Source: a virus
Reading direction: 5' to 3' (one strand)
Length of the DNA: 37,236 bases
IMG/VR virus record: IMGVR_UViG_3300033146_007131
Coordinates: 1 to 37,236 of that record
Shown here: in pieces, positions 5,563-37,236 of the stretch
How positions within the stretch are numbered: the first letter of the stretch is position 1
Layout of the letters: every line of letters starts with the position of its first letter
Notes under the pieces: generated by a model
What the model was told of the DNA's origin: nothing
What the model saw: the letters and a program-made list of their open reading frames with translations, nothing else
Databases searched by the model: none
Position numbers and translations under genes: made by a program

Positions 5563-5720
5563 CATCCTCTCCAAGCTAAAGCATAGGAGTTTCCTATACC
5601 ATTAGAGAAGTCTGACGAATTACTATAAAATAGCTATTCGTTTGGGTTGTGCCACGCAACCTCTATTCCTCAAACAAAGCAAAGCTTCGCTTTCTGGGTT
5701 TACTTTTCTTATTATATTTA
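5563..5720 (-). ncRNA. Probable omegaRNA (right-end guide RNA of TnpB), approximate limits
   Basis: In IS200/IS605 elements the RNA that guides TnpB is transcribed across the 3' end of tnpB and the right end, and its guide comes from the flanking DNA. Here that region covers the last codons of tnpB and the non-coding right end with its hairpin. The guide would read into dam from 5562 leftward (starting TCATCTAATAG). The 5' limit is an estimate; only the position and the hairpin support it. Confidence 0.45.
5583..5597. repeat. IS right-end subterminal hairpin
   Basis: ATAGGA (5583-5588), 3-nt loop, TCCTAT (5592-5597). It lies 20 nt inside the deduced right end, where Y1 transposases recognise a hairpin. 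Confidence 0.6.
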
Positions 5721-6846
5721 ATGCTCCATTTACATCTGCATTTAATATATAGCCTCTTGAATCTTTAAATAAACCTCGTCTTATCCTTCTACCTTTATAT
5801 TTAACTTGTTTATTTAAAGCCTCATTATTTAAAAAACTACATTTACTTGTATAACTTTCTTCTGTTACTTTTAGCTCTATTCCATATAATTCACTTAAAT
5901 ATTCTAATTTACTCTTTATCTTATGAAAAGGCAACTGTACAAAATTCTGATTATTTACTTTTCCTATTTTTATCTTATTTTTCCAAAACTCATTATAACC
6001 TAATACTATTTTTCCTATCTTGTTTTTTAAACAATGATTTATTACTATTCTTACTGCTTTGGAAATATAATCTTGTATTCTATTATTCCTTTTATGAGTT
6101 ATATATTGTATCTTTTTACTTTTTCCTTTTTTGATCTTTGATTTATATTTACTTACTTGTTTGTTATAATATTGGTTTATTGATTTTATTTTCCGTCCAT
6201 CTATAATAATAGATGACCCATTATTTTCTACACAAGTTAATAAATTATTTAAACCTAAATCTATTCCTAATATTTTTTCATTATCCAAACCTAACTCTAT
6301 TTTATCTTGAACTTCATATATATATTCTAATTCAAAATATAAACCATCCAATATTGGGTTCAATCTCACTTGCTTTATTTTTTTATCTAAAATTGTTTTT
6401 GGTATTTTTACTTCTAAACAAAATTTATTTTCTTTTTTATATTGTCTTGATAAAGGTAATTTAAATACTCCATTTTTAATACAACTACTATCTCTAAAAA
6501 TTAACTGGAATAAACCATTGATATCTTTATATTTTGGTAGCTTTACTTTTTTATCATATTGCCCTTTCTTCTTTTTTCTCTTTACTTCGAAAAAAGAAGA
6601 AAAATTATCATTTACTTTTTTTATTACTTGTTGAGCAATTCCAGCTTGCAAAAGTTTAAAATTTTCATTTGTTTTAGCTAAAGAACAATTATTAGCATAA
6701 GATAAAAATTGTTTATTATTAAAAAAATATTGTCTAACATTGTAAAGAGCAACATTATATAGGTTTTTAGAGAAGAAACAAAGTTCTTTAAGCTTTTTAT
6801 ATTGTTTTTTCTTTAATTTAAGTTGTTGTTTACAAGTAAGAATCAT
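5623..6846 (-). CDS. tnpB: TnpB, RNA-guided nuclease of the IS200/IS605 element
   Basis: TnpB of this family is an RNA-guided DNA endonuclease related to Cas12 that helps keep the element at its donor site. From the ATG at 6846 it has 407 residues. RuvC motifs: GIDLGLNN with D196 and NADVNGALN with D371. The second acidic residue is unclear: the usual place reads VLGYNEFWK (E286), while TEESYTSK offers E329/E330, as in a subgroup with a rearranged site. The zinc-finger region is reduced to SKCSFLNNE with one cysteine. I chose 6846 over 6891 because AAAGG precedes it and it follows the tnpA stop by 1 nt. The C-terminal RNRGCVAQPKR segment overlaps the guide RNA region. Confidence 0.92.
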   Translation of the reverse strand: MILTCKQQLKLKKKQYKKLKELCFFSKNLYNVALYNVRQYFFNNKQFLSYANNCSLAKTNENFKLLQAGIAQQVIKKVNDNFSSFFEVKRKKKKGQYDKKVKLPKYKDINGLFQLIFRDSSCIKNGVFKLPLSRQYKKENKFCLEVKIPKTILDKKIKQVRLNPILDGLYFELEYIYEVQDKIELGLDNEKILGIDLGLNNLLTCVENNGSSIIIDGRKIKSINQYYNKQVSKYKSKIKKGKSKKIQYITHKRNNRIQDYISKAVRIVINHCLKNKIGKIVLGYNEFWKNKIKIGKVNNQNFVQLPFHKIKSKLEYLSELYGIELKVTEESYTSKCSFLNNEALNKQVKYKGRRIRRGLFKDSRGYILNADVNGALNIIRKVNPESEALLCLRNRGCVAQPKRIAIL

Positions 6847-6847
6847 A

Positions 6848-7261
6848 TTATTTACCTTTTTGATTTTCAATATATTTTTTAACAGTTTCAAGAGAGACAG
6901 AACCGACTGATGAAATAAATCTAGCTCTAGTCCAAAGACAAGGTAGTTTTTTAGTAAGAGATGGGAATATTTCTCTCATTTTACGAGATGAGAAACCTTT
7001 AATCTTAGTAACAGTTTCATATATAGACACTTTAGGTGAATTAGAAATAAGAATATGAACATGATCTTCCATAACTTCAATTTCAATAAGTTTAAACTTA
7101 AATTTACCTTGTATAGATTTAATAATATGTTTAAGTTCATCTTGCATAATAGGATCTAAAACACTTCGTCTATATTTAGTAGTCCATATAACATGATATT
7201 GGCAAGAGAAAACGATATGTTTGTCTCGTTCATATATCTTGTGTGTATTAGTTATATTCAT
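6848..7261 (-). CDS. tnpA: TnpA, Y1 HUH transposase of the IS200/IS605 element
   Basis: This 137-residue single-strand transposase cuts and joins the hairpin-marked ends through a 5'-phosphotyrosine. It carries the HUH motif in MEDHVHILIS (H67, H69) and the catalytic tyrosine Y130 in VKKYIENQ. The FSCQYHVIWTTKYRR start and the full length are typical of the family. I chose the ATG at 7261 (MNITNTHK) because AAAGGATATAATA precedes it; the frame is open up to 7312. It overlaps nothing and is directly followed by tnpB. Confidence 0.95.
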   Translation of the reverse strand: MNITNTHKIYERDKHIVFSCQYHVIWTTKYRRSVLDPIMQDELKHIIKSIQGKFKFKLIEIEVMEDHVHILISNSPKVSIYETVTKIKGFSSRKMREIFPSLTKKLPCLWTRARFISSVGSVSLETVKKYIENQKGK

Positions 7262-10985: not shown

Positions 10986-12014
10986 ATGAGTAAAGATTTA
11001 TCAGGATCTTATAGTTTAAATGATCTTTTTAGTTCTTCAAATATGCAAGTCGTTTCAAAAGATCCAATTCAAGATAATAAAAAAGCTGAATTTATTAATA
11101 AAAATAATAGTACAATTAAAATACAGCAAAAAAGACGACAAAGATCAATAAACCAAACATTAAAAAAAGACTTAAAAAAAGCTAAAAATCCGATGAATAG
11201 TCATATACCACCTAGCTTATTTAAGTCAAAGCCTTTAAATATTAAGTTAGAAAAACGAGTAGTAGAAGAATCTACTACGGAGGTATTGCATCGTTTAGGA
11301 CAATTAACTGAAACAGCTCAAAAGATTGTGGCTAAAAAAATGTTAGATAATAAAATAGATTATACAAAGCCTTTGTCACGTCAAGTTATGTCAACCAAAC
11401 GAGCAAATAAGGATTTTGTTAATAAAAGACGACGTACGGTTGCTGAACTATTAAATTATGGAATGGTTGCTGCACAAATATCAGAAGCTCTTGATGTATC
11501 AATTTCGGCAATAAATAAAGATATACATGTTATTAGGCATGGTAAAAATAAAGAAGGAAAAGAAGTAGGTGATAGTATTTTGGCTTCATATGACAAAATG
11601 TTAGCTGATTTAACGGTTGAATATATTACTGCTGATGAGGCTTCTAAACCTAAGATTATTAATTCGAAAATGAGAACATTAGAGTCTAAATGGAAATATA
11701 TGTTAATTACAGGTATGATTAGAAAGAAAAAGGCTGGTGCTTTGATAGCAGGTAAAGATTTAGCTAAAATGTCTGCAACTGAATTAACAAATACACTGAA
11801 GAATATAAAAAAAGATACTGAAAATATACAAGTTGACAAAAAAAGATCTTCTCAAAGTGATTTAGATGTTCAGAATGGTGAAGTTAAAAGACTTTTTAAT
11901 AAACCAAAAGTTGAAATACCCAATTTCCTTTTAGAAAAAGATACAGATATTATTGAAGATATCGAAAGTATAGAGGCTGAAATTAAGGATCTTAATGATG
12001 TTGGGGTAAGTTAA
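10986..12014 (+). CDS. Probable terminase small subunit
   Basis: A 342-residue protein whose stop overlaps the large terminase start by one base (TAATG), the standard place for the DNA-recognition subunit. The first ~100 residues are charged and probably disordered. The centre carries a helix-turn-helix (RRTVAELLNYGMVAAQISEALDVSISAINKDI, about residues 143-175), followed by a helical oligomerisation-like region and an acidic C-terminal tail (DTDIIEDIESIEAEIKDLND). It is longer than the usual ~150-200 residues, mostly in the flexible ends. AGGAGAAG precedes the ATG. Assigned by HTH and gene order; no specific family recognised. Confidence 0.72.
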   Translation: MSKDLSGSYSLNDLFSSSNMQVVSKDPIQDNKKAEFINKNNSTIKIQQKRRQRSINQTLKKDLKKAKNPMNSHIPPSLFKSKPLNIKLEKRVVEESTTEVLHRLGQLTETAQKIVAKKMLDNKIDYTKPLSRQVMSTKRANKDFVNKRRRTVAELLNYGMVAAQISEALDVSISAINKDIHVIRHGKNKEGKEVGDSILASYDKMLADLTVEYITADEASKPKIINSKMRTLESKWKYMLITGMIRKKKAGALIAGKDLAKMSATELTNTLKNIKKDTENIQVDKKRSSQSDLDVQNGEVKRLFNKPKVEIPNFLLEKDTDIIEDIESIEAEIKDLNDVGVS

Positions 12015-14311
12015 TGGATAGTGATGAAATTGAAAAAAATCAACTAATTAATTTAATTAAAGTTCAGGATGAGTTAATGAGGCGTGAGGGATATACTGAT
12101 CCTTCTACGTTTGGTTTACCAGATTTGTTGTTTCCAATGAATACTTATCCAGCTACACTTGAGCGTTTAGATAATGGTCTTTATAAAAAAAATAAACGTA
12201 AATTGTTAGAAAAAGATGAAACTCGTGGCGAGTATCGTTACAGGAGATATCAAGAGTTAAAAAAGTTCCTTGAAAAAAAATTACATATTCAAAAGGATGG
12301 TAGAATTGAAAAGCTTAGAATTGTTGATCCTGTATTAGAGTTTTTAGGTGATATCTTTTTTGGATATATACGTAGAGCTATTTTATGGAAAAATAGAGGT
12401 GGTGGTGGTTCTCTTGCTGCTGCTATCGTGATGTGGCTAAGAATGGTATGGCAAAATCAAAGCTGGATGGATATGGCTGGTTGTTTGTTACCAAGCACAG
12501 AAGTATATATTAAAGAATTAAAAAATTATATTCCTGTAAGGTGTGTACAGGAAGGATATCATGTTTGGACTTTAACAGAAGAGTGGCGAAAAATAAAAAG
12601 AGTCATAAAAAGAAGTGGTGAATATATGGCTTATCAAATCAAGCCATTTGGCTCTATTATTAATACTTTTACAGAAGATCATTTAATTGCGGTTGTTAGC
12701 TGTCTTGAACGTGATTTTCAGGGCAATATCGTTAATGTTGATATTGAACATTGGGATTCATTGGATATTATATGGAAAGATGCTTGTTTGGTTAATCCAG
12801 ATATAGATACAGTTATAATTGGTAAATTAGATAAATTCCCTGGTAAGAAAATAAAATCTAATGGATGTGCTGGTAAAAATGGTAGATGGGATGGCAAGGA
12901 TAGAACTTATGTTTCAATTGCAATGTTTGATCACTTTGAATATGTTGGTGATGTTTACGATTTAACTGTTGATAGCGAGCCGTTCTTTCTTTGTCGCGAT
13001 ATGACAGTACATAATAGTCAAGAGCAGGCAAAACAGGTTTATGAGTATACTACTCAGTTCTGGGATTGTTTTCCTTTTATGAAGAAAACTCTTTTACCTA
13101 ATGATACTCAAGTTTCTTTAACTAAATTAATAACAGGTGTAACGTTAAGATGTGTTACTAGTACTGAGAAATCAGCGAGATCAAAACATCCACCTGGCTT
13201 ATGTATGGATGAAGTTTGTCAGGATAAAGAGGGAATAGATACAGTTTTCAGATCAGCAATGGGAGCTTCATTAACAGAGCCTAATTCAACAATTATTGCA
13301 CTTTCTACTTTCCATATACCAGTAGGTTTATTTCAAGAGATGTGGGATCATGCTGGCAAATTAGGATTTAGAAGATACACTTGGTCAACGTGGGATATTA
13401 TGGAGCATTGTTCTGAAGGTATGGATTGTGCTACTGATAAAGATCCATATGCTTATAGCTTTTGTTTAAAGTATTGTCCTTTAACAGAGCAAATAGATGA
13501 AGCTGTGCATTCACCTGATGGAATGATTACTAAAAGAAAATATATTGGATGTAGAGGTCAAGCAAGACATACTAATGGTTTCAGGAAAAGAGCAGTTGTC
13601 ATTGCTGCTAAAGCTGCAAGTGGTAAAAACTTTTTAGTTGAATGGGAAAACAGTAGACCAACAATACCTGGTTCAGTTTATGATATTAATGATGTTACTT
13701 ATGCTGAAAAAGCAGAATTTGAATTACCTGATAAAGATCCAATATTAGTTCATGTCGGTATTGACTGGGGATTTAATGAAGGCTGTATGTGTGTCATAAT
13801 GCTTTATGAAGAGGGTATTTTTATTCCAGAGGCAGAGTTTATGAACTTTAAGACTGTTTCTGAGTGTATTGTTATTCTTGAAAAATGGAGAAGTTATTAT
13901 ACTAATTATAATAAAGATGATAGCTTAGGTAAAGATATTTGTGTATATGCTGATGCATCTCATCCTTTTAATAATAATGATTTACATGAAGCTGGCTTTG
14001 AAACTGTTCCTGTAGATTTTGGTGGAGTAAAAGATTATGGGCTTTTTAATGTTGCAAAATATCTTGAAAATGGTCGTTTAAATATTAATGGTGATTTATA
14101 TAAATTTTTAAGACAAATTAAAGAATATAGAAATAATAAAAAAACAGGAAAACCTATTAAAAAAAATGACCATGCTCCTGATTCAATGCTGGCAGGCATG
14201 GTAGAGCTTGACTATGATGAACTTTTTGGACCTAATTCAAACATTAAATATATTCGAGAAAATGGTGATAAAAAACCTGATTCAAGTAACGATAAAGTAT
14301 TAATTTTTTAA
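12014..14311 (+). CDS. Terminase large subunit (ATPase-nuclease) with mini-intein
   Basis: The motor that pumps and cuts phage DNA. The precursor has 765 residues; removal of the intein (157-334) would give 587. ATPase: a Walker A-like NRGGGGSLAAA at 127-137 with G132 where lysine is expected, the DMAG/SQEQAK motif now split by the intein, and Walker B LCMDEV with D399/E400. Nuclease (RuvC-like): D584 in VGIDWGFNEG, D647 in YADASH and D719/D723 in NDHAPDSM. It overlaps the small terminase gene by one base. After its stop comes an A/T-rich stretch and a promoter. Assignment by motifs and order is firm; motor activity despite the altered Walker A is inferred. Confidence 0.92.
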   Translation: MDSDEIEKNQLINLIKVQDELMRREGYTDPSTFGLPDLLFPMNTYPATLERLDNGLYKKNKRKLLEKDETRGEYRYRRYQELKKFLEKKLHIQKDGRIEKLRIVDPVLEFLGDIFFGYIRRAILWKNRGGGGSLAAAIVMWLRMVWQNQSWMDMAGCLLPSTEVYIKELKNYIPVRCVQEGYHVWTLTEEWRKIKRVIKRSGEYMAYQIKPFGSIINTFTEDHLIAVVSCLERDFQGNIVNVDIEHWDSLDIIWKDACLVNPDIDTVIIGKLDKFPGKKIKSNGCAGKNGRWDGKDRTYVSIAMFDHFEYVGDVYDLTVDSEPFFLCRDMTVHNSQEQAKQVYEYTTQFWDCFPFMKKTLLPNDTQVSLTKLITGVTLRCVTSTEKSARSKHPPGLCMDEVCQDKEGIDTVFRSAMGASLTEPNSTIIALSTFHIPVGLFQEMWDHAGKLGFRRYTWSTWDIMEHCSEGMDCATDKDPYAYSFCLKYCPLTEQIDEAVHSPDGMITKRKYIGCRGQARHTNGFRKRAVVIAAKAASGKNFLVEWENSRPTIPGSVYDINDVTYAEKAEFELPDKDPILVHVGIDWGFNEGCMCVIMLYEEGIFIPEAEFMNFKTVSECIVILEKWRSYYTNYNKDDSLGKDICVYADASHPFNNNDLHEAGFETVPVDFGGVKDYGLFNVAKYLENGRLNINGDLYKFLRQIKEYRNNKKTGKPIKKNDHAPDSMLAGMVELDYDELFGPNSNIKYIRENGDKKPDSSNDKVLIF
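12482..13015 (+). mobile_element. Mini-intein inside the large terminase
   Basis: A 178-residue protein intron. It begins at Cys157 (CLLPSTEVYI, block A), has a block B TxxH (TEDHLIAV), a block F-like VYDLTVDSEPFFL and ends TVHN with the next residue Ser335 (block G, penultimate His, Asn334, +1 Ser). All residues for the standard splicing pathway are present. It is too short for a homing endonuclease; the middle shows no LAGLIDADG or HNH motif. The exteins rejoin as DMAG-SQEQA, a conserved terminase segment. Confidence 0.93.
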
Positions 14312-27905: not shown

Positions 27906-29855
27906 ATGCCTGACTATAAATTCCCAAATGTCTATATGGTAGAGAAACCTGGACTTCCAATAGTTTCTCCTGCCAGTACAAATATTGCTTGTATGATTGG
28001 GCAAGCTGAACGTGGTCCACTCAAACCTATTTTTATTGATCATCCAAAAACTTTCCTTCAATATTTTGGAGGTTCTTTTCAAGGTAGTTATAGCCTTGAC
28101 GCTATAAATGGATTCTATGGTGAAGGTGGTCAACGAATGTACTTTATTAGAGTTGTTGGCTCTGGAAGTGCAGTTGCATCAAAAGACTTTGATAACCTTG
28201 ACGGTAATCCAGGAATTACAATTAAAGCTCAAAACCCTGGTTCATGGGGTAATAAGATTAGAGTTTCTTCAGCAAAATTTGAATCAGAACTTGATGTGGA
28301 TATACCAATCGGCAATGTTACACAAATAACACTTAAAAGTATTCGTAACTTAAATAGAGGTGATGTTATTTATGTCGATGATGGAACCACTGTTTTACGT
28401 TCAGTAGTACTTTCATATGATGCAGCCACAAGAGTAGTTGATATTCAACCTATGCCAGTTGCAGCTTTAATACCTGCTGGTACAGCAGCACTTAGTAATT
28501 CAATGCATAGAGCAACTACACAACTTGCTGTTGACATTACAGCTGGTAGTATTACAGAATTTGAAGTTAATGATGCCAGAAATTTAAGGCCAAATCAAAT
28601 ATTGTGGATTGGCGATGGAACAAATAAGGTAGAATGTGTTGTTGAATCTGTAAATAATGAAACTATTATGATTGCCGCGACTGTGTTTCCAGCTTTATCT
28701 GCTGCTACTTCTCTTGTTGCTTCTCAAGAATTTTATATGAATTTTTACTATAAAGGTGAACAACCAGAATCATCATTCGAATATCTTTCGATGAATGAAG
28801 ATAATACTAGTGATTATATTGAAAACAAATATGGTCCGGAAAGCAATCAGTCAATTTATATCGAACTAGAAGATCTTGCAGTCGGTGGTTCACTTGTTAA
28901 TCTGATTCCAAAACCATTTAAAGATATAGCACTTACAGGTGGTCTTAATGGTGCTACTCCAGTAGATGATGATTATATCGGTGATAATGCTACTGATCCT
29001 AAAACTGGTATATATGCAGTTGATGATCTTTATGATGTGAGTATATTGGCTGTACCTGGAATTACAACAATTACTGTTCAAAAATTTATGCAAGAGTATC
29101 TTGAGGGTAGTAATCGTAAAGATATGATTGGCATTATCTCTGCTCCAATGGCAAAAACAACTCCACAGGATGTAAGAGATTATAAAAATTTTGATCTTAA
29201 TATTGACAGTAGTTATTTAGCTTTTTATTATCCTTGGGTTATCGTTAGAGATCCAGATTCTAATGCTATTACTAAATTATCACCCCCTGATGCAAGAATA
29301 GCAGGTCTTTATGCTAGAATAGGTGACACTAGAGGGATTCAAAAGTCACCATCAAACGAACCTCTTTTTACAGCGGTTGATCTTGCTCGTAATGTTTCAG
29401 ATAACGAACAGAGTATACTTCATCCTGAAGGTATTAATGTTATACGTTCATTTAGAGGTCGTGGTATTAGAGTAAACGGTGGACGAACAATGCAATTCAA
29501 TAAAGATGGGAAGCATTACGTTTCTATTCGAAGAGTATTGAACTTTGTTAAAATATCATTAAGAACAGACCTTTCTTGGGTTGTTGAAGAACCAAATACA
29601 AGAGATACAAGAAGTGCTGTTGAAACACAGATAAAGCAATTTCTGGGTGGATTATGGGCACAAGGCATGTTAGCTCCAGAAGATGATGAATCTAAAGCTT
29701 ATTATGTTAAGTGTGATGGCGAAAACAATACACAAGCAGATGTTGATGGTGGAATATTAAGGATTGATGTTGGTATTAATCCTCCAAGACCAGCAGAGTT
29801 TGTTGTTTTATCTCTTGAACTTTGGAATGGTAGTGTTTCAATTAGTGAAGGTTAA
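27906..29855 (+). CDS. Tail sheath protein
   Basis: The contractile outer tube of a myovirus tail. The start (PDYKFPNVYMVEKPGLPIV), IACMIGQAERGPLKPIFIDH and the C-terminal half (DPDSNAITKLSPPDARIAGLYARIG, VNVIRSFRGRGIRVNGGRTM, YVSIRRVLNFVKISLRTDL, EPNTRDTRSAVETQIKQFL) are family hallmarks. At 649 residues it is long because of an insertion at about 138-283 that holds two similar beta modules (RNLNRGDVIYVDDGTTV and RNLRPNQILWIGDGTNK). AAAAGGAT precedes the ATG. It shows the virion is contractile and precedes the tube genes, as usual. Confidence 0.95.
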   Translation: MPDYKFPNVYMVEKPGLPIVSPASTNIACMIGQAERGPLKPIFIDHPKTFLQYFGGSFQGSYSLDAINGFYGEGGQRMYFIRVVGSGSAVASKDFDNLDGNPGITIKAQNPGSWGNKIRVSSAKFESELDVDIPIGNVTQITLKSIRNLNRGDVIYVDDGTTVLRSVVLSYDAATRVVDIQPMPVAALIPAGTAALSNSMHRATTQLAVDITAGSITEFEVNDARNLRPNQILWIGDGTNKVECVVESVNNETIMIAATVFPALSAATSLVASQEFYMNFYYKGEQPESSFEYLSMNEDNTSDYIENKYGPESNQSIYIELEDLAVGGSLVNLIPKPFKDIALTGGLNGATPVDDDYIGDNATDPKTGIYAVDDLYDVSILAVPGITTITVQKFMQEYLEGSNRKDMIGIISAPMAKTTPQDVRDYKNFDLNIDSSYLAFYYPWVIVRDPDSNAITKLSPPDARIAGLYARIGDTRGIQKSPSNEPLFTAVDLARNVSDNEQSILHPEGINVIRSFRGRGIRVNGGRTMQFNKDGKHYVSIRRVLNFVKISLRTDLSWVVEEPNTRDTRSAVETQIKQFLGGLWAQGMLAPEDDESKAYYVKCDGENNTQADVDGGILRIDVGINPPRPAEFVVLSLELWNGSVSISEG

Positions 29856-29914: not shown

Positions 29915-30505
29915 ATGGCAGGAACAGATTTAAAAGGCGGAAGACCCGATATTTTACGTGGATTTAGATATAATGTATCTATTACACCTGAAGGTGAAAA
30001 ATCTATTGGGACTTTAGGGTTTTCAAAAGTATCAGGGTTAAACTTGGGAACCTCGGATGTAATTGAATATAGAGAAGGTAACGAGCGTGTATCACCTCGA
30101 AAAATACCAGGTTTAAATAAATTTGATAATATAACTCTTGAACAGGGTAGGGCTTTAAGCGACACAGGAACAGCATTAGCTGATTGGCGAGCAGCAGTTG
30201 TGTGGGCTGAAGGTGGCAAAGGCGGTTTTTCGCCAGATGGTAAAAGATTCGGACTACAATATTTTGATTATAAAAATTATCGTGCTTCAATGAGAATACA
30301 GCTCATTAATAGAAATGGAAAACCATCTGTTGAATGGCAAATAGATAAAGCATGGCCAATATCTTTAAAGTTTTCAGATTTAGATGGAAATACTTCTGAT
30401 GTATTGATTCAAACTTTAGAGATTGCAACTGAAGGTATTCAAGAAGTTGTTGGTTATACGCGGACTTCTTCAGAAGCAACTTCAGGAAGTGCAATTACAA
30501 AATGA
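29915..30505 (+). CDS. Tail tube protein (T4 gp19-like), paralogue 1
   Basis: Inner tube subunit of the contractile tail. It carries the family core ILRGFRYNVSI, FSKVSGLNLGTSDVIEYREG, PRKIPGLNKFDNITLEQG and ends with WPISLKFSDLDGNTSDVLIQ and LEIATEGI. At 196 residues it is close to normal. The most standard of the four copies and next to the sheath, so it is the likely main tube protein. Its start depends on the hairpin at 29871-29903. It shares about 100 nt of near-identical sequence with the copy at 31969. Confidence 0.92.
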   Translation: MAGTDLKGGRPDILRGFRYNVSITPEGEKSIGTLGFSKVSGLNLGTSDVIEYREGNERVSPRKIPGLNKFDNITLEQGRALSDTGTALADWRAAVVWAEGGKGGFSPDGKRFGLQYFDYKNYRASMRIQLINRNGKPSVEWQIDKAWPISLKFSDLDGNTSDVLIQTLEIATEGIQEVVGYTRTSSEATSGSAITK

Positions 30506-30540
30506 TTTCTATTGTTAATAAAATCATATTATGATAAAAT

Positions 30541-30561
30541 CCACTACCTTTATGGTAGTGG
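30541..30561. repeat. Small hairpin CCACTACC-TTTAT-GGTAGTGG
   Basis: An 8-bp stem with a 5-nt loop between tube paralogues 1 and 2, followed by AAAATTT rather than a T-run. It matches the hairpin at 3653-3669 in stem core and loop. It may protect the tube mRNA 3' end or reduce readthrough into paralogue 2. Confidence 0.6.
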
Positions 30562-30628
30562 AAAATTTAATATTAGCGTAATAGAGGTTTGGTTATAAAA
30601 ATTTTTAAATTTAGGTTTTATATATTTT

Positions 30629-31372
30629 ATGATTTTACGTAAACATGATATATCCAGAGCATATAAATTTAGAGTTTTAATTCCTAGAAGTAGTTATGAT
30701 GATACTTTTTATGATAGTGAAGCAGCAGAAGGTAGACATAAAGCTATTAATAAAGGTATAGATTCATATGCTAACAATATGATGTCAAGTGATAGATGGT
30801 CAAGATTTTCAGAAAGAGAAAAAAGAAATTTTAGAATAATAGTTAAAAATATGCGTTCACGAGCTTGGAGAAATTCAGATGAAGGGGAAAGAATAGCTTC
30901 AAATACTTATGATATAGGTTTCTCAAAGGTTTCTGGATTAACAACTGGTCAATGTGATATTATGACATATAGGAATGGCTATGATAAACTTGATTATCAT
31001 AAAGAACCTGGTTTAGTAAAAGTAAAAAATATAATACTTGAAAGAGGTTTTGCAGTTCAAGATGCTTTTGAATTTATGTTTGCTTGGCATCGTCATACAA
31101 TGTTTAATATGGATGAAAAATTAGATATAGGTGAACAGGTAAAGAGGCCACAAGATGTTGGTTATAATCCTGATTTTGAAGATAATGACAGTACTTATTT
31201 TATGAGAAATATACGAATATCATTATATGACAGATTAGGTAGAACTAAAACTTCTTGGTCTTTATCTAATGTATGGCCAATAGAATTAGAATTTTCAGAT
31301 TTAGATTCTATGGATTCTAAAGTAATAATAGAACGAATGGTTTTATCGGTGCATGGTATAGATATTAATTGA
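30629..31372 (+). CDS. Tail tube-family protein, paralogue 2 with N-terminal insertion
   Basis: Belongs to the gp19-like family by ISRAYKFRVLI, YDIGFSKVSGLTTGQCDIMT, YHKEPGLVKVKNIILERG and WPIELEFSDLD. At 247 residues it is longer because a charged ~80-residue insert (about 16-95: SSYDDTFYDSEAAEGRHKAI, REKRNFRIIVKNMRSRAWR) lies in the first loop. It is the most diverged copy. Such variants may sit at a tube end or contact the baseplate. The ribosome site is weak (TTTAGG about 14 nt upstream), suggesting low output. Confidence 0.82.
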   Translation: MILRKHDISRAYKFRVLIPRSSYDDTFYDSEAAEGRHKAINKGIDSYANNMMSSDRWSRFSEREKRNFRIIVKNMRSRAWRNSDEGERIASNTYDIGFSKVSGLTTGQCDIMTYRNGYDKLDYHKEPGLVKVKNIILERGFAVQDAFEFMFAWHRHTMFNMDEKLDIGEQVKRPQDVGYNPDFEDNDSTYFMRNIRISLYDRLGRTKTSWSLSNVWPIELEFSDLDSMDSKVIIERMVLSVHGIDIN

Positions 31373-31380
31373 GGTAACTA

Positions 31381-31887
31381 ATGGCAAAAGGTATTGATAT
31401 TTTACGAGCATTTAAATATAGAGTAACGATAGTTGAAACAAAAGGTAGTAATAGTAGCATATTGGGTTTTTCAAAGATATCAGGTTTGACTCTTGGGGCT
31501 TCGGATGTGATTGAATATAGAGAAGGTAATGAAGGTCCTTTTTTTCGAAAACTTCCTGGTTTACATAAGTATAAGAATGTTATATTGGAAAAAGGAAAAG
31601 GAAGTGATGCAGATATCCTTGAAATGGAAAGATGGAGAGATCAAGTTTCTTATTATAGATCAAATATAAAAGTAACAGATAAGGATGGATATGGGACTGT
31701 TTATTATTATAAGACTATCAATATTGCATTATATTCTAGGTCTGGAGATATTAAATTTGAATGGGTATTACATAATGCTTGGCCTACAAGTATTGATTAT
31801 AGTGATCTTGATGCTCAAACATCATCATTTTTAATAGAAACAATAGATATTGCATATGAAGGTGTTGAGATAATCCGTCATAAGTAA
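31381..31887 (+). CDS. Tail tube-family protein, paralogue 3
   Basis: A 168-residue gp19-like protein: ILRAFKYRVTI, LGFSKISGLTLGASDVIEYR, RKLPGLHKYKNVILEKG, AWPTSIDYSDLD. It lacks insertions. It starts 8 nt after paralogue 2 with GAGG at good spacing, so these two are co-translated. Probably an initiator, cap or baseplate-adaptor ring rather than the bulk tube, by analogy to systems with several tube proteins. Confidence 0.85.
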   Translation: MAKGIDILRAFKYRVTIVETKGSNSSILGFSKISGLTLGASDVIEYREGNEGPFFRKLPGLHKYKNVILEKGKGSDADILEMERWRDQVSYYRSNIKVTDKDGYGTVYYYKTINIALYSRSGDIKFEWVLHNAWPTSIDYSDLDAQTSSFLIETIDIAYEGVEIIRHK

Positions 31888-31968
31888 AAATTTTTTCTAT
31901 TAAAATTGATATATTATTAATTTTTTGTTATTATATTTGAAATAAAACGATTTTAACAAGGGAAAATT

Positions 31969-32493
31969 ATGCCTACTTTAAGAAGTAATAGTTATGATCC
32001 ATTAAGAGATTTTAGATTTATTGTTAGTTTTCCTGGTGAAAAAGCTCAAAGTAGACAAGATATTAAACTTGGTTTTTCAAAAATATCAGGATTAAATTTA
32101 GGAACATCAGATGTAATTGAGTACAGAGAAGGTAATGAAATTATTTCACCTCGAAAAATACCAGGTTTAAACAAATATGATAATATAACTTTTGAAAGGG
32201 GACGTGCTAATGATCCTGGGAATACTTTTTTTTTAGAAGATTGGCGTGAAAAAGTTGCCCACCATAAAGGTGGTTATAAAGGTAATTCTCCAGATGGAAT
32301 AAACAAGTCATCTACATTTTTTAGGAAAAAAATTAGTGTTAGCGTTGTGAATCGTGATGGTCATGTTGCAACGAAATTTGTTTTATATGATGCATGGCCA
32401 GTAAGTTTAAAGTATTCTGATCTTGATAGTCAAAATTCTGGGTTATTAATTTCAACATTAGAAGTTGCAATTGAAGGTCTTGTGGTTTTTTAA
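31969..32493 (+). CDS. Tail tube-family protein, paralogue 4
   Basis: A 174-residue gp19-like protein, closest to paralogue 1 (FSKISGLNLGTSDVIEYREG, PRKIPGLNKYDNITFERG, AWPVSLKYSDLD). CAAGGGAAAA precedes the ATG. The high similarity to paralogue 1 at DNA level suggests recent duplication or gene conversion. The 81-nt gap before it has TTGATA-17-TATTAT at ~31907, a possible weak promoter. Role inferred as tube, tube end or adaptor. Confidence 0.87.
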   Translation: MPTLRSNSYDPLRDFRFIVSFPGEKAQSRQDIKLGFSKISGLNLGTSDVIEYREGNEIISPRKIPGLNKYDNITFERGRANDPGNTFFLEDWREKVAHHKGGYKGNSPDGINKSSTFFRKKISVSVVNRDGHVATKFVLYDAWPVSLKYSDLDSQNSGLLISTLEVAIEGLVVF

Positions 32494-32621: not shown

Positions 32622-33458
32622 ATGGAAAATAAAAAGAAAAAAGAAGAACAGGTTGATGTTCAACCTAAGAATGAAGTTAAAAAAGAAATTGAATATAATG
32701 CACATCTTGACAAGGAAATTTTTGAAGATATAGAAAATGGAATAGTATATCTTCCGCTTGGTTGCATTATTGATGAGCGTTTAGAGCGAAAAATAAAAAT
32801 AAAAAAAATGAAAGCTAGAGACAGATTAGAAATGTCTCGTAAAAAAAGTCAAAAAAACCCAATGAAAACATTTGATCTTATTCTTAATAGATGTGTTTTA
32901 GAAATTGGAGACAAGCCAGCTACATCATCCCTTATCCAATCTTTTTCAACAGGAGATAGAGATACATTATTTCTTGCACTTCGAAGATATTCAATTGGTG
33001 ACACTATGGTATATAAAACTAAATGTGGAGCTGTTGATTGTGGTGAAGAGTTAGAGATAGAGCTTTCTTTATCAGATATTCCAATTAAGCAACGTAAGCC
33101 AGAAAATTATATCATAAAAGATGGACGAAATTTCATAAAAGTAAAAAATGAAAAATTGGGTATTTCTCTTGAGATGAGAGTCCCAGATAATAATGATTTC
33201 CAAGCATTAAAAAAATATGTTCTTGATCAAGATCCAGAATTAGATTATCAGTTATATAAAAGATGTTTAACTAAATGGAATGATAAAGAAGGTCCTTTTG
33301 GTATTGATTTTGTATTAGATTTTGATATTCCAGAGATAAAATGGATAGAGGATATTGTTCGAGAGTTGCCAGGTCCTAATTGGGATTTTAATATTACATG
33401 TGATTTTTGTGGATCAGTAGGAAAAGTTAATCTTGGTAATATTGATTTTTTATCTTAG
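32622..33458 (+). CDS. Tail assembly chaperone / T4 baseplate-hub (gp26-like) family protein
   Basis: A 278-residue protein with the pattern of the T4-type baseplate/assembly family: LPLGCIIDERLERKIKIKKM, LILNRCVLEIGDKP, FSTGDRDTLFLALRRYSIGD and a cysteine pair C-x4-C that with CDFCG near the end (residues ~262-265) could bind zinc. It lies between the tube genes and the tape measure, the usual chaperone place. It ends on a T TTT TTA slippery site and probably also makes a -1 frameshift product of about 353 residues. AGAAAGGT precedes the ATG. Confidence 0.78.
   Translation: MENKKKKEEQVDVQPKNEVKKEIEYNAHLDKEIFEDIENGIVYLPLGCIIDERLERKIKIKKMKARDRLEMSRKKSQKNPMKTFDLILNRCVLEIGDKPATSSLIQSFSTGDRDTLFLALRRYSIGDTMVYKTKCGAVDCGEELEIELSLSDIPIKQRKPENYIIKDGRNFIKVKNEKLGISLEMRVPDNNDFQALKKYVLDQDPELDYQLYKRCLTKWNDKEGPFGIDFVLDFDIPEIKWIEDIVRELPGPNWDFNITCDFCGSVGKVNLGNIDFLS
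33446..33452 (+). promoter_or_regulatory. -1 frameshift site T TTT TTA
   Basis: The zero-frame codons are GAT TTT TTA TCT TAG, so the heptamer T TTT TTA has the ideal phase for a -1 slip. The -1 frame has a TGA at 33443-33445, directly before the heptamer, and is then open to 33680. The overlap of both frames is therefore just 33446-33458, with the slippery site in it. Tail chaperone genes of many phages use this mechanism. No clear stimulatory structure is seen at 5-9 nt downstream. Confidence 0.82.
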
Positions 33459-33682
33459 ATCCGAGTATTGATCCATCTCTCAATCCAGATGCTTATAAGG
33501 AGTGTTTCACGAGTGGTGAAGTTTTAATGGAACAATGGTTCTATATAAATAAAACTATGGATGGCGGCTTTTCTCTTGATGAGTTTAAAGATCTTGATGA
33601 TTGGGAGCGTTATTGGCTTATAGAAAGATGTGTTCGTTATAATGAACAAGTAGAAAATGAAATGGATAAAGCCAAAAATTAA
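33452..33682 (+). CDS. -1 frame extension of the tail assembly chaperone
   Basis: After the slip the frame reads ILDPSIDPSLNPDAYKECF, then helical DEFKDLDDWERYWLIERCVRYNE, and ends at TAA (33680-33682): 76 residues added to 277 from the upstream gene. The Trp/Glu-rich helical style is that of the second part of chaperone pairs. An independent start is possible: AAGGAG at 33497-33502, a 5-bp hairpin (33506-33510 with 33516-33520) and an ATG at 33527 would give 51 residues, with the hairpin shortening the spacing to about 9 nt. I favour the frameshift. Confidence 0.75.
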   Translation: MLDPSIDPSLNPDAYKECFTSGEVLMEQWFYINKTMDGGFSLDEFKDLDDWERYWLIERCVRYNEQVENEMDKAKN

Positions 33683-33699
33683 TATTCGGAAATAATAAT

Positions 33700-33736
33700 C
33701 AGGGATTGTTAATAGCAATTCCTGGTATCTTTTTTT
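33700..33736 (+). terminator. Terminator between chaperone and tape measure
   Basis: CAGGGATTG (33700-33708) pairs with CAATTCCTG (33716-33724), one G-U, around a 7-nt loop, followed by GTATCTTTTTTT. It probably lowers expression of the tape measure relative to the tube and chaperone. Confidence 0.75.
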
Positions 33737-33750
33737 GATTGGAACGAGTA

Positions 33751-36700
33751 ATGAGTGTTACAGAAGAACATTTCAAATTAACGACATGGTTTGTTGCAAA
33801 AAATCAAATGAATCCTGCAATGAAAAGTGTAAGTGCTGGTTTTGCAACATTACAGAAAGATGCTGCGGCTACGCTTGGAGTTATTAATAGTTATAGTATG
33901 ATTTCTTCTGTTATGGCAAGAGCTGGTAGATCAATTACACGTTTTACGTCAACGGCTGTAAAAGAATTTGCTAAATTTGAGACAGAAATATTATTTACTG
34001 CAAAAGTTATGGATAAAACAATAGATTCATATGGTGCAATATCTAAAGCTGTACTTAGTGTTGCTAGAGATGTTCCAATTGCAACGCAAGAAGTTGCTAA
34101 AATGGGATCATTTTTAGCTCAAATGGGTATTCAAACCCCAAAGGCTTTAAAAGGTATGTTAGGTGTTGTAGCGAAGACAGCGTTAGCTACAAGAGTACCA
34201 GCTAAACAGCTTTCTTTGATGTTTGGTAAATTAACACAAATTTATGCTAAAGCTAATGACAAAGAAGAAGATATGATGATTACAGCAAGGAAATTAGCAT
34301 CAGCATTAGTTGTAGTTTCAAATAGGACTTCAGATGTAGCAGGTAAGATTTCTGATATGACTGTTCGTTTTGCTGCTTCTGCAAATGAAATGAATTTAAC
34401 GGCACAATCATCTATGGCAATTTCTTCTATTTTGGTAAATAGTGGAATGCAAGCAAGAAGAGGTGCGACTCAGATAACGAAAATATTAAGAACTATGATT
34501 ACTAAGCCAGCACAATTAGCTGCTGAAGCTGGTATCCAAATTAGTGATTTTCAAAAACATATGGGACGAGCATTAAAAGGTGAAGAAAGTGGAGCACAAA
34601 TTTTTCTTGGTGTTTTGTCTGCATTTAGAGAAAAATATAAAGGTGATAAAATTGGGTTGGCAGAATCTATTAAAAGAATATGGGGTACAAGTATTCCAGC
34701 AGCAAATGCAATGACTTTTCTTATTCGAAAAGTTGATTTATTGAATAAAAAAATGAGAGAGTCAGAAAAAGCTTTTAAAGAAGGTGCTGAATTGCAGAAT
34801 GCTTTAGCACTTGTATCTTTAAGTTATTCATCACAGCTTACATTACTTTCTAATGCTTGGACTAAATTAAAGATTGTTATAGGTAAAGCATTAAAACCTA
34901 TATTAGTTCCTTTAATTTGGATATTAAAGACTATGTTACATTTAGTAACAATGATACCAAAACCTATACTTAGAGTCATTAGTGTTTTTACTGTATGGGC
35001 AGGTATAGCTACTATTTTAGCTGCTAAGTTTACACTTATGAGACTTGTTTTTGGAGGTCTTTCAAGTGTTTTTGGTACTATGGAAATAGCTGCTAGGGGT
35101 TTTTTGGGTACAATGATAAAAATAATGTCACTTGGGACTTTAGGTGGTGGTGGATTTTTCGGCGGAAAAGCTATGGTATCAAATGCTATTAATACTAAAT
35201 TAATGGCAGACAAATTATTAGCATCTAAAAAAGCATTAGCTATTGCAACTACTAAAAGAACAGCGGTCTCTAATCTAAAAACGACTCCTCTAACTAGCGT
35301 AGCTGCTAATCTCAGAATGGCAAGACAAGGAAAAATAATAACAAGACATACTCAAAAAATGGCTTTACTTAATAATCAATTAGCAACAAATGGAAGTATT
35401 TTTGCAAGAGCAAGTGTTAAATCAAGATTATATTGGAGATCTTTTAAGAGTTCTCGCCTTGTAAAGTCATTAGGTGTGCTTGGACGATCTTTAATTAAAA
35501 ACCTAGGTGAAATGCCAACTCCAAGTAAGGCTTCATTTAAACGGCTTTTAAAGCCGCTTTCTAATATCTTCGGAGAAATGATTACCTTAATGAAAAAAGG
35601 TTTTATGTCTGTTGCTAAAACAGTAATGGATGGAGGCTTTTTAAAAAGTATAAGTAGTGGTTTTTCAGGTCTAATGAAAAGCATGAAAGGTAGTTTTTCA
35701 GGTATAATCAAGATGATGAGATCAGCAATGAGTCTTTTAGGGCCATTAATGATTGTTGCTGGTGTTATATATTTTATATATGAAAATTGGGATAGATTAA
35801 AAGAAGCATTTGGCGGTTCAAGTGCAATAAGTGATGCGTGGGGTGAAACATGGACAAGTATAAAAAATGCTTTTACTGAAGTTATTGCATCTATAATGCC
35901 TATATTACAAGATATGTCATCAATGCTTGTAGAAGCTTTTGGATTAGAAAAAACAAGTGATGGTGTTGGCAATTTTGCACAATTTATAATTACTTTAATG
36001 AAAACTATTGCTTTATTTGTTACGGCATCAATGAAATTAATTAGTGGTTTAATGAAAATTTTGAGACCAGTTTTTGCTATGTTTTCAACAATGTTTGTAG
36101 GTATTATAAATTTTGTAGTTGGTATTGTTAAAATGTTTAATGGTGATTTTTGGGGTGGACTGAAACAGGCATTTCAAGGTTTATGGCAATTTGTTGTAAG
36201 TTATTTTTTAAAATTACCATCGTTAGTTTTTAATGTTTTTATGGGTTTACTTAATTGGATTACAGGTGGGTTTTTTACCCCTTTTATATCAAGGATTAAT
36301 GCTGGTTTTAAATCTCTTGTAAGTGGTACACTTTCTGGTTTTGTTGATTTTTTTAGGCAAATAATAGTAGGTCTTGCAGAAGTTGGAGCCTTACTGATTA
36401 AAACTATAATAATAAACCCAATACTCGCTTTATGGAATGGTATAAAATCTATTTGGAATAAAGTTACAGGTTTATTTTCGAGTAAAAAGAAAAGCATTGA
36501 AATTACTGGTAAAACTGAAGATGGTACTGTAACAGTTGAAAGTGCTAGACCTAAATTAGCAGGTGGTGGGTTTTTTAATAAAGAAACTGATGTAACAGTA
36601 GGAGAAGCTGGTCCAGAAATAGTAACGCCATTAAAACCTAATATTATTGGTGACTTGATTGGTATTAATGGGTTAGAAAAGTTACTTATTGAAGCTAATT

Positions 36701-37236
36701 TTTATTTATCTAAAATGAGTTTGATGTTTAAGGAAAAAGGTGCTAAGGTTTCAGTTACAACATCTGCTGTTGATTTTATTGCTAACTTTCCAGAGGCAGT
36801 AGCGTCAAAAATGGAAGATGCTATTTCTGTTTCAGAAGATGCAGTTAGTGGGCTTGTTGATACTCAAAAAAAATCAAATCAGAATTTTACAAATTCGTTT
36901 TTAACTTTAATAGATTTATTTAAAAATTTCTCGATAAAGAATAATAATATAAAAAGTGTTAGTTCAAAACCTAATGATATCATTGTCGCAAGTAGCTTAG
37001 GTGCACTTTCTAAACCTATAATAGACTTAAAAAATATAATGTTGTCAAATGGTTTATCAATAAAGGGATCTTTAGATATAATTTCAGCAGGCATGTCTAA
37101 CATAAGTGCTAGTATAAAGAATGTTAGTTCATTAGCTGATATATATACTAGTTTAGATAATGTTGTATTTAGCATCACAACTTTATCTACAAATTTAAAA
37201 AACACAATATTATTAAGTACATTATCAATAAAAGAA
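33751..37236 (+). CDS. Tail tape measure protein (partial, runs off the right edge)
   Basis: An open frame of 1162 codons without a stop. It sets tail length and is ejected into the host. The first ~370 residues are a PhageMin_Tail-type domain (FVAKNQMNPAMKSVSAGFAT, then ALKGMLGVVAKTALATRVPA), followed by hydrophobic segments at about 388-427 and 664-681, a long helical part with repeated SGL/MK patterns, and at about 938-960 the GGFFNKETDVTVGEAGPEIV motif that is common in tape measures. The ATG at 33751 follows GGAACGAGT. Several reverse-strand open frames here are antisense shadows. The C-terminus and following baseplate genes lie outside the window. Confidence 0.9.
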   Translation, partial: MSVTEEHFKLTTWFVAKNQMNPAMKSVSAGFATLQKDAAATLGVINSYSMISSVMARAGRSITRFTSTAVKEFAKFETEILFTAKVMDKTIDSYGAISKAVLSVARDVPIATQEVAKMGSFLAQMGIQTPKALKGMLGVVAKTALATRVPAKQLSLMFGKLTQIYAKANDKEEDMMITARKLASALVVVSNRTSDVAGKISDMTVRFAASANEMNLTAQSSMAISSILVNSGMQARRGATQITKILRTMITKPAQLAAEAGIQISDFQKHMGRALKGEESGAQIFLGVLSAFREKYKGDKIGLAESIKRIWGTSIPAANAMTFLIRKVDLLNKKMRESEKAFKEGAELQNALALVSLSYSSQLTLLSNAWTKLKIVIGKALKPILVPLIWILKTMLHLVTMIPKPILRVISVFTVWAGIATILAAKFTLMRLVFGGLSSVFGTMEIAARGFLGTMIKIMSLGTLGGGGFFGGKAMVSNAINTKLMADKLLASKKALAIATTKRTAVSNLKTTPLTSVAANLRMARQGKIITRHTQKMALLNNQLATNGSIFARASVKSRLYWRSFKSSRLVKSLGVLGRSLIKNLGEMPTPSKASFKRLLKPLSNIFGEMITLMKKGFMSVAKTVMDGGFLKSISSGFSGLMKSMKGSFSGIIKMMRSAMSLLGPLMIVAGVIYFIYENWDRLKEAFGGSSAISDAWGETWTSIKNAFTEVIASIMPILQDMSSMLVEAFGLEKTSDGVGNFAQFIITLMKTIALFVTASMKLISGLMKILRPVFAMFSTMFVGIINFVVGIVKMFNGDFWGGLKQAFQGLWQFVVSYFLKLPSLVFNVFMGLLNWITGGFFTPFISRINAGFKSLVSGTLSGFVDFFRQIIVGLAEVGALLIKTIIINPILALWNGIKSIWNKVTGLFSSKKKSIEITGKTEDGTVTVESARPKLAGGGFFNKETDVTVGEAGPEIVTPLKPNIIGDLIGINGLEKLLIEANFYLSKMSLMFKEKGAKVSVTTSAVDFIANFPEAVASKMEDAISVSEDAVSGLVDTQKKSNQNFTNSFLTLIDLFKNFSIKNNNIKSVSSKPNDIIVASSLGALSKPIIDLKNIMLSNGLSIKGSLDIISAGMSNISASIKNVSSLADIYTSLDNVVFSITTLSTNLKNTILLSTLSIKE

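Follow-up and report, generated by a model that had tools for sequence, protein, structure and literature searches.

Genomic context of the gp26-like gene

The gene lying between the tail tube genes and the tape measure gene of this virus ends at a run of six T residues, within an overlap with the -1 reading frame, which raises the question of whether it encodes a single tail assembly chaperone or a short and a long form of it produced by programmed frameshifting. The stretch analysed, hereafter the window, is an IMG/VR virus record of 37,236 bases with a GC content of 29%, and the features of its tail module are the following:

27906–29855, + strand: contractile tail sheath (PF04984, 2.3e-16; phrog_23, 5e-57)
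29915–32493, + strand: four T4 gp19-like tail tube proteins in tandem (29915–30505, 30629–31372, 31381–31887 and 31969–32493), with PF06841 in all four
32622–33458, + strand: zero-frame gene, tail assembly or hub chaperone of the T4 gp26 family, short form, 278 residues
33024–33041, + strand: first cysteine pair (Cys135 and Cys140), invariant in alignment A3; coordinates derived from the residue numbering
33399–33410, + strand: second cysteine pair (Cys260 and Cys263), invariant, 16 codons ahead of the slip site
33443–33445, + strand: TGA that opens the -1 frame
33446–33452, + strand: slippery heptamer T TTT TTA, in phase (GAT TTT TTA TCT TAG)
33446–33682, + strand: -1 frame extension, 78 codons and a TAA stop (33680–33682)
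33698–33726, + strand: terminator-like hairpin followed by ATCTTTTTTT (-15 kcal/mol, z -3.57)
33739–37236, + strand: tape measure protein (PF10145 PhageMin_Tail, 1.1e-15), start at TTG 33739 or ATG 33751

The order sheath, tubes, gp26-like gene, extension and tape measure is also found in LuckySocke, BRock, LE3 and other loci, and the position of the gp26-like gene between tail tube and tape measure is that of the chaperones of the G/GT kind. The tape measure gene extends past the end of the window. Between its start and the stop of the extension lies the hairpin with its tail of seven T residues, which could reduce expression of the tape measure protein relative to that of the chaperone. A single tube gene is listed ahead of the gp26-like gene in the annotated LuckySocke, BRock, pSt2308 and GiJojo genomes, against four in the window. 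Elsewhere in the window, an ORF directly upstream of the portal region (12014–14311, + strand) shows a weak match to the intein splicing family PF14890 (3e-4, below the cut-off), and a TnpB/OrfB-like transposase gene (PF01385, PF07282) occupies 5623–6891 on the - strand.

The zero-frame protein and the slip site

The 278-residue protein matches PF12322 with an E value of 3.9e-18 and 66.4 bits (curated Pfam cut-off 24.5) and phrog_150, 'baseplate hub', at 3.9e-17. PF12322 was the only Pfam family found for it at E values up to 1, with no match to the P2 GpE family. Its predicted structure (pLDDT 84, pTM 0.79) looks like two copies of one arrangement of secondary structure elements, each followed by a Cys pair. 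Among PDB entries the model comes closest to 2ob9, the tail assembly chaperone of HK97 (Foldseek probability 0.96, E 0.18; VIA Z 6.2, rmsd 3.6 over 85 aligned residues, the next Z being 4.2), and these values, which lie where unrelated matches also occur, suggest but do not prove that the body of the protein is akin to the HK97 chaperone.

The arrangement at the end of the gene is the one described in the sequence-only reading. The heptamer lies in phase, its TTT being the fourth codon from the end of the zero frame with the stop counted; the -1 frame opens directly after the TGA and runs to its stop, and the overlap of 13 nt holds the slippery site. The locus presents an overlapping frame with a conserved extension (see below) that has no start of its own, as do chaperones of the G/GT kind. 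Programmed -1 frameshifting, which the earlier reading had placed at the end of this gene and which is well supported by the conservation of both site and extension in relatives, very probably yields a short and a long tail assembly chaperone here, in the manner of lambda G/GT and P2 E/E+E'. Most ribosomes would halt at the TAG (33456–33458) and release the 278-residue form, while a minority would shift back by one base at U UUU UUA and continue to the end of the -1 frame, giving a predicted fused product of 353 residues (277 from the zero frame and 76 more) with a putative all-helical C-terminal domain. The ratio of short to long form would be governed by the efficiency of slipping. By analogy with lambda gpG and gpGT, we infer that the body would coat the tape measure protein and the extension would bring the tail tube protein to it.

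Conservation of the slip site in relatives

Taken alone, the heptamer does not exceed chance expectation in such an AT-rich window. Given the amino acids D-F-L and the codon usage of the locus its probability is 0.49, and it occurs in phase at 27 of the 80 other FF/FL dipeptides of the window ORFs. Relatives were therefore needed, and it is conservation that decides. The window protein found no match in a direct search of viral contigs, nor did two alignments searched against genome contigs. Relatives were reached by other routes: by tblastn the Streptomyces phages LuckySocke and Alone3; with the sheath as query Leptospira LE3 and LE4 and Streptomyces BRock; with the tube paralogs eight IMG/VR loci; and through gp26-like relatives pSt2308, GiJojo, GXN1, LR756508, L012, L022, L023, LR756511, Phosso and Kuja. 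Built from seven gp26-like proteins, a profile detects the gene in all eight loci reached via the tube, and gave no gp26-like match in L003, reached via the sheath. Three loci (L021, L024 and L025) duplicate L013, L014 and L019 and were excluded from the counts.

An in-phase T TTT TTA/C/G is present at the same place in 19 of the 24 -1-type loci, the window included, so that the conservation of the heptamer proposed earlier as a check is borne out; since the T4-like and cyanophage records were hand-picked from ranked lists (seven gp51 relatives of 1339 records and four more of 1542, with PM10, S-SM2 and D493 taken from a list of 392), these counts describe the examined loci and not frequencies. 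Before the T4-like and cyanophage additions T TTT TTN was found in 14 of 17 -1-type loci (the window, L012, L013, L014, L016, L017, L018, L019, L022, L023, LE3, LE4, LR756511 and Phosso). The additions comprise five loci with the heptamer (S-SM2, Syn10, S-RIM2, MA10 and Vibrio D486) and two without it, PM10 and D493, which join L015, L020 and Kuja as the five lacking it. The slip site follows the last Cys pair by 16–17 codons in 12 of the 14 heptamer loci and by 20 codons in the remaining two.

Compared with other FF/FL dipeptides of the same loci, the homologous site stands out clearly. Among the 16 other -1-type loci the heptamer occupies it in 13, a count inflated by the near-identical pairs L022/L023 and LE3/LE4, against 5 of 228 dipeptides elsewhere. 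In L013, L014, L019 and L022 the codons GAT TTT TTG TTC are identical, which is the longest run of identical codons (four) in the gene; in the GC-rich relatives identical codons are seen at 28 of 98 conserved residues, and the probability of the heptamer given the amino acids is 0.005–0.018. A second group of relatives appears to shift in the opposite direction, with TTT C at the site in all seven +1-type loci (LuckySocke, Alone3, BRock, pSt2308, GiJojo, GXN1 and LR756508), 17–18 codons after the last Cys pair in the six measured.

The C-terminal extension

With an extension HMM from which it had been left out, the window extension reaches 43.9 bits and the next window ORF 3.1 bits. When one clade at a time was left out of the HMM, 19 of 20 extensions outscored every one of 500 shuffled versions of themselves, two of them narrowly (LE3, 12.6 bits against 8.8 for the best shuffle; LR756508, 9.5 against 9.2). 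The Kuja extension failed this test (0.7 bits, with 47 of 500 shuffles equally good), its 55 bits having come from an HMM that includes Kuja. The relatives of Kuja likewise give a mixed picture: for the PM10 extension the extension HMM yields 1.1 bits and an HMM of the gp51 C-terminus 7.1 against 6.3, while that of D493 obtains 12.6 against 7.0 with the former but -1.4 with the latter. The extension is homologous across most loci, and the dN/dS values of three pairs (0.031/0.282, 0.092/0.614 and 0.015/0.588) indicate that it is under purifying selection. It is predicted as four helices, and its model finds no fold match in the PDB. A tblastn search of phages with the extension gave chance matches only (E 5), and DUF6760 is matched by 2 of 12 extensions, below its cut-off.

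According to the earlier reading, relatives carrying the extension as a separate gene would speak against frameshifting. Such an arrangement does exist, on a Haloferax larsenii plasmid. There a distant injection-system locus, which also has sheath and tube genes, carries a gp26-like gene and, behind it, DUF6760 as a gene of its own, which the extension HMM matches with 31.4 bits (shuffle maximum 5.1). This arrangement does not overturn the reading for the window, since the closer relatives of the window are of the frameshifted type. In this plasmid locus (L039, 4977–5773) the gp26-like protein is devoid of the second Cys pair, and the DUF6760 gene overlaps the gene for it by 4 nt.

Alternative origins of the products

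An alternative source of a short product was proposed in the sequence-only reading, according to which the extension would be a separate small protein started internally at ATG 33527, behind an AAGGAG and a hairpin. All the elements are present (AAGGAG at about 33498, a 5-bp stem and the ATG), the domain is found as a separate gene in Haloferax, and starts within the extension were chosen by the annotators of cyanophages. Nevertheless the AAGGAG is 24 nt away from the ATG, and folding of the 51-nt segment is no stronger than that of its shuffled versions (z -0.04). The first start codon of the window extension is codon 28, with none earlier, and initiation there would lose 27 residues; in the 22 loci compared, the first start lies anywhere between 3 and 49 codons past the slip, and the conservation of the T run would be left without explanation. 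The proposal is thus weakly supported, and we regard internal initiation as very unlikely.

A run of six T could also lead RNA polymerase, instead of the ribosome, to slip and generate the fused frame, and identical proteins would result. For transcriptional slippage in bacteria a run of six T is short, and both the strict codon phase with a variable last base (A, C or G) and the switch of other relatives to TTT C with a +1 shift fit re-pairing of tRNAs better, making polymerase slippage a still less probable origin. Least credible of all is that no programmed event takes place, the heptamer being an AT-rich coincidence, as its chance level in the window would allow, or the extension having decayed out of frame, given the homology of the extension in 19 of 20 tested sequences, the purifying selection on it and the retention of the site in GC-rich and distant relatives.

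Ribosomal -1 slipping remains the preferred reading, and a downstream RNA structure is not a feature common to the loci. In the window no significant structure was detected downstream of the heptamer by pseudoknot-free folding (z -0.61, with 47 of 200 shuffles folding equally well), and z falls below -2 in only 3 of 11 folded loci.

Relationship with T4 gp26 and gp51

Both gp26 and gp51 of T4 are listed as hub assembly chaperones in the accessible text of PMC3004832, where gp51 is described as essential and of unknown function. T4 gp26 corresponds to PF12322 through to its end and finishes at the slip position, while gp51 consists of PF12322 (residues 1–201) and about 48 further residues. Among the ORFs of the T4 region and 500 shuffles, the gp51 C-terminus ranked first with the extension HMM (10.3 bits, best shuffle 4.2), and hhalign of the extension against eight gp51 C-termini gave a Prob of 63.5, falling to 8.7 against full-length gp51. 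The gp51 C-terminal HMM applied directly to the window extension gave only 0.2 bits.

A link between the two is provided by the T4-like cyanophage S-SM2, whose gp26 ends GGT TTT TTC GCA TAG. Its -1 extension, with 22.9 bits against the frameshift-extension HMM (shuffle maximum 10.5) and 42.0 bits against the gp51 C-terminal HMM (shuffle maximum 9.8), bridges the frameshift extensions and the gp51 C-terminus; that a T4-like cyanophage gp26 ends in T TTT TTC, with a -1 extension matching the C-terminus of gp51, is a new observation. Through S-SM2 and Haloferax the window extension can be considered, indirectly, homologous to the gp51 C-terminal domain and DUF6760. T TTT TTC is also present in Syn10, S-RIM2, MA10 and Vibrio D486, and their scores with the gp51 C-terminal HMM are 27.8, 26.3, 7.0 and 25.2 against shuffle maxima of 6.4, 9.6, 6.3 and 9.0, respectively, MA10 being marginal. 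With the extension HMM, Syn10 (10.2 against 10.5) and MA10 (9.2 against 8.5) are at or near shuffle level. The annotations of S-SM2, S-RIM2, MA10 and D486 list the extension as a small 'baseplate hub assembly catalyst'.

In the T4-like phages PF-CE2 and KLB15 the gp51-form and gp26-form genes are adjacent, in tandem. We infer as the simplest history a frameshifting ancestor followed by duplication in the T4 lineage. On this history T4 is probably no true exception to the G/GT scheme: the ancestor would have had its frameshift where gene 26 ends, a frameshift that T4-like cyanophages apparently retain on T TTT TTC, and after duplication gp26 would have kept the short and gp51 the extended form. 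The cyanophage 'catalyst' ORFs would then be frameshift extensions of gp26 and not genes in their own right. The cyanophage heptamer, together with an extension that matches the gp51 C-terminus, thus suggests that T4 swapped the frameshift for the paralogous genes 26 and 51. The T4 annotation also gives gene 26 an internal product, 26' (L026, 7803–8090, - strand).

Comparison with known systems

Chaperone frameshifting ahead of the tape measure gene is a known kind of event, conserved in long-tailed phages with the exception of T4 according to the accessible text of a 2016 review (PMC5009743), and what is new is the proposed place of the gp26/gp51 family in it; no statement of such membership was found in the accessible text of the literature searched, which left most subscription papers outside. 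In lambda G/GT and HK97, as predicted for the window, a slip ahead of the tape measure gene gives two products with a common N-terminus (PMC5009743, accessible text), and the predicted fold of the body may resemble that of HK97 2ob9; the window protein differs in its greater length, its two Cys pairs and its contractile tail. Its sequence was compared with the lambda and HK97 proteins through Pfam and PHROGs.

The earlier reading had considered a U-run slip unusual for phage tail chaperones, a view contradicted by P2 and its relatives, which use TTTTTTG in E/E+E' (PMC3091744); the accessible text of that paper reports no downstream structure in P2. As in P2, the -1 slip in the window would occur on six T and one further base, immediately ahead of the tape measure gene, but the base is A and the protein belongs to PF12322. 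The same reading had called the site HIV-like. HIV-1 gag-pol does have the same U UUU UUA and the same direction (site named in the accessible text of PMC5009743), but the gene is unrelated and the likeness is a coincidence of the heptamer, the usual helper structure having gone undetected in the window. T4 has PF12322 in both gp26 and gp51, with the additional residues of gp51 resembling cyanophage frameshift extensions, but its two genes are separate and it has no frameshift.

For +1 slips, the accessible text of papers on haloviruses (PMC7230728) and influenza PA-X (PMC3498833) discusses the motif TTT CGC/CGT. BRock, pSt2308 and GiJojo share with the HF1-group haloviruses TTT CGC and a +1 extension ahead of the tape measure gene (PMC7230728). 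The HF2 chaperone was discarded as a relative, the gp26 profile giving no match (-0.2 bits). One family would deliver the same domain by slipping in either direction (-1 or +1), from paralogous genes or from a separate gene. Its placement within the G/GT kind would explain the probably mis-called small cyanophage ORFs and gives gp51 a testable role, as the extended chaperone for the tape measure protein gp29.
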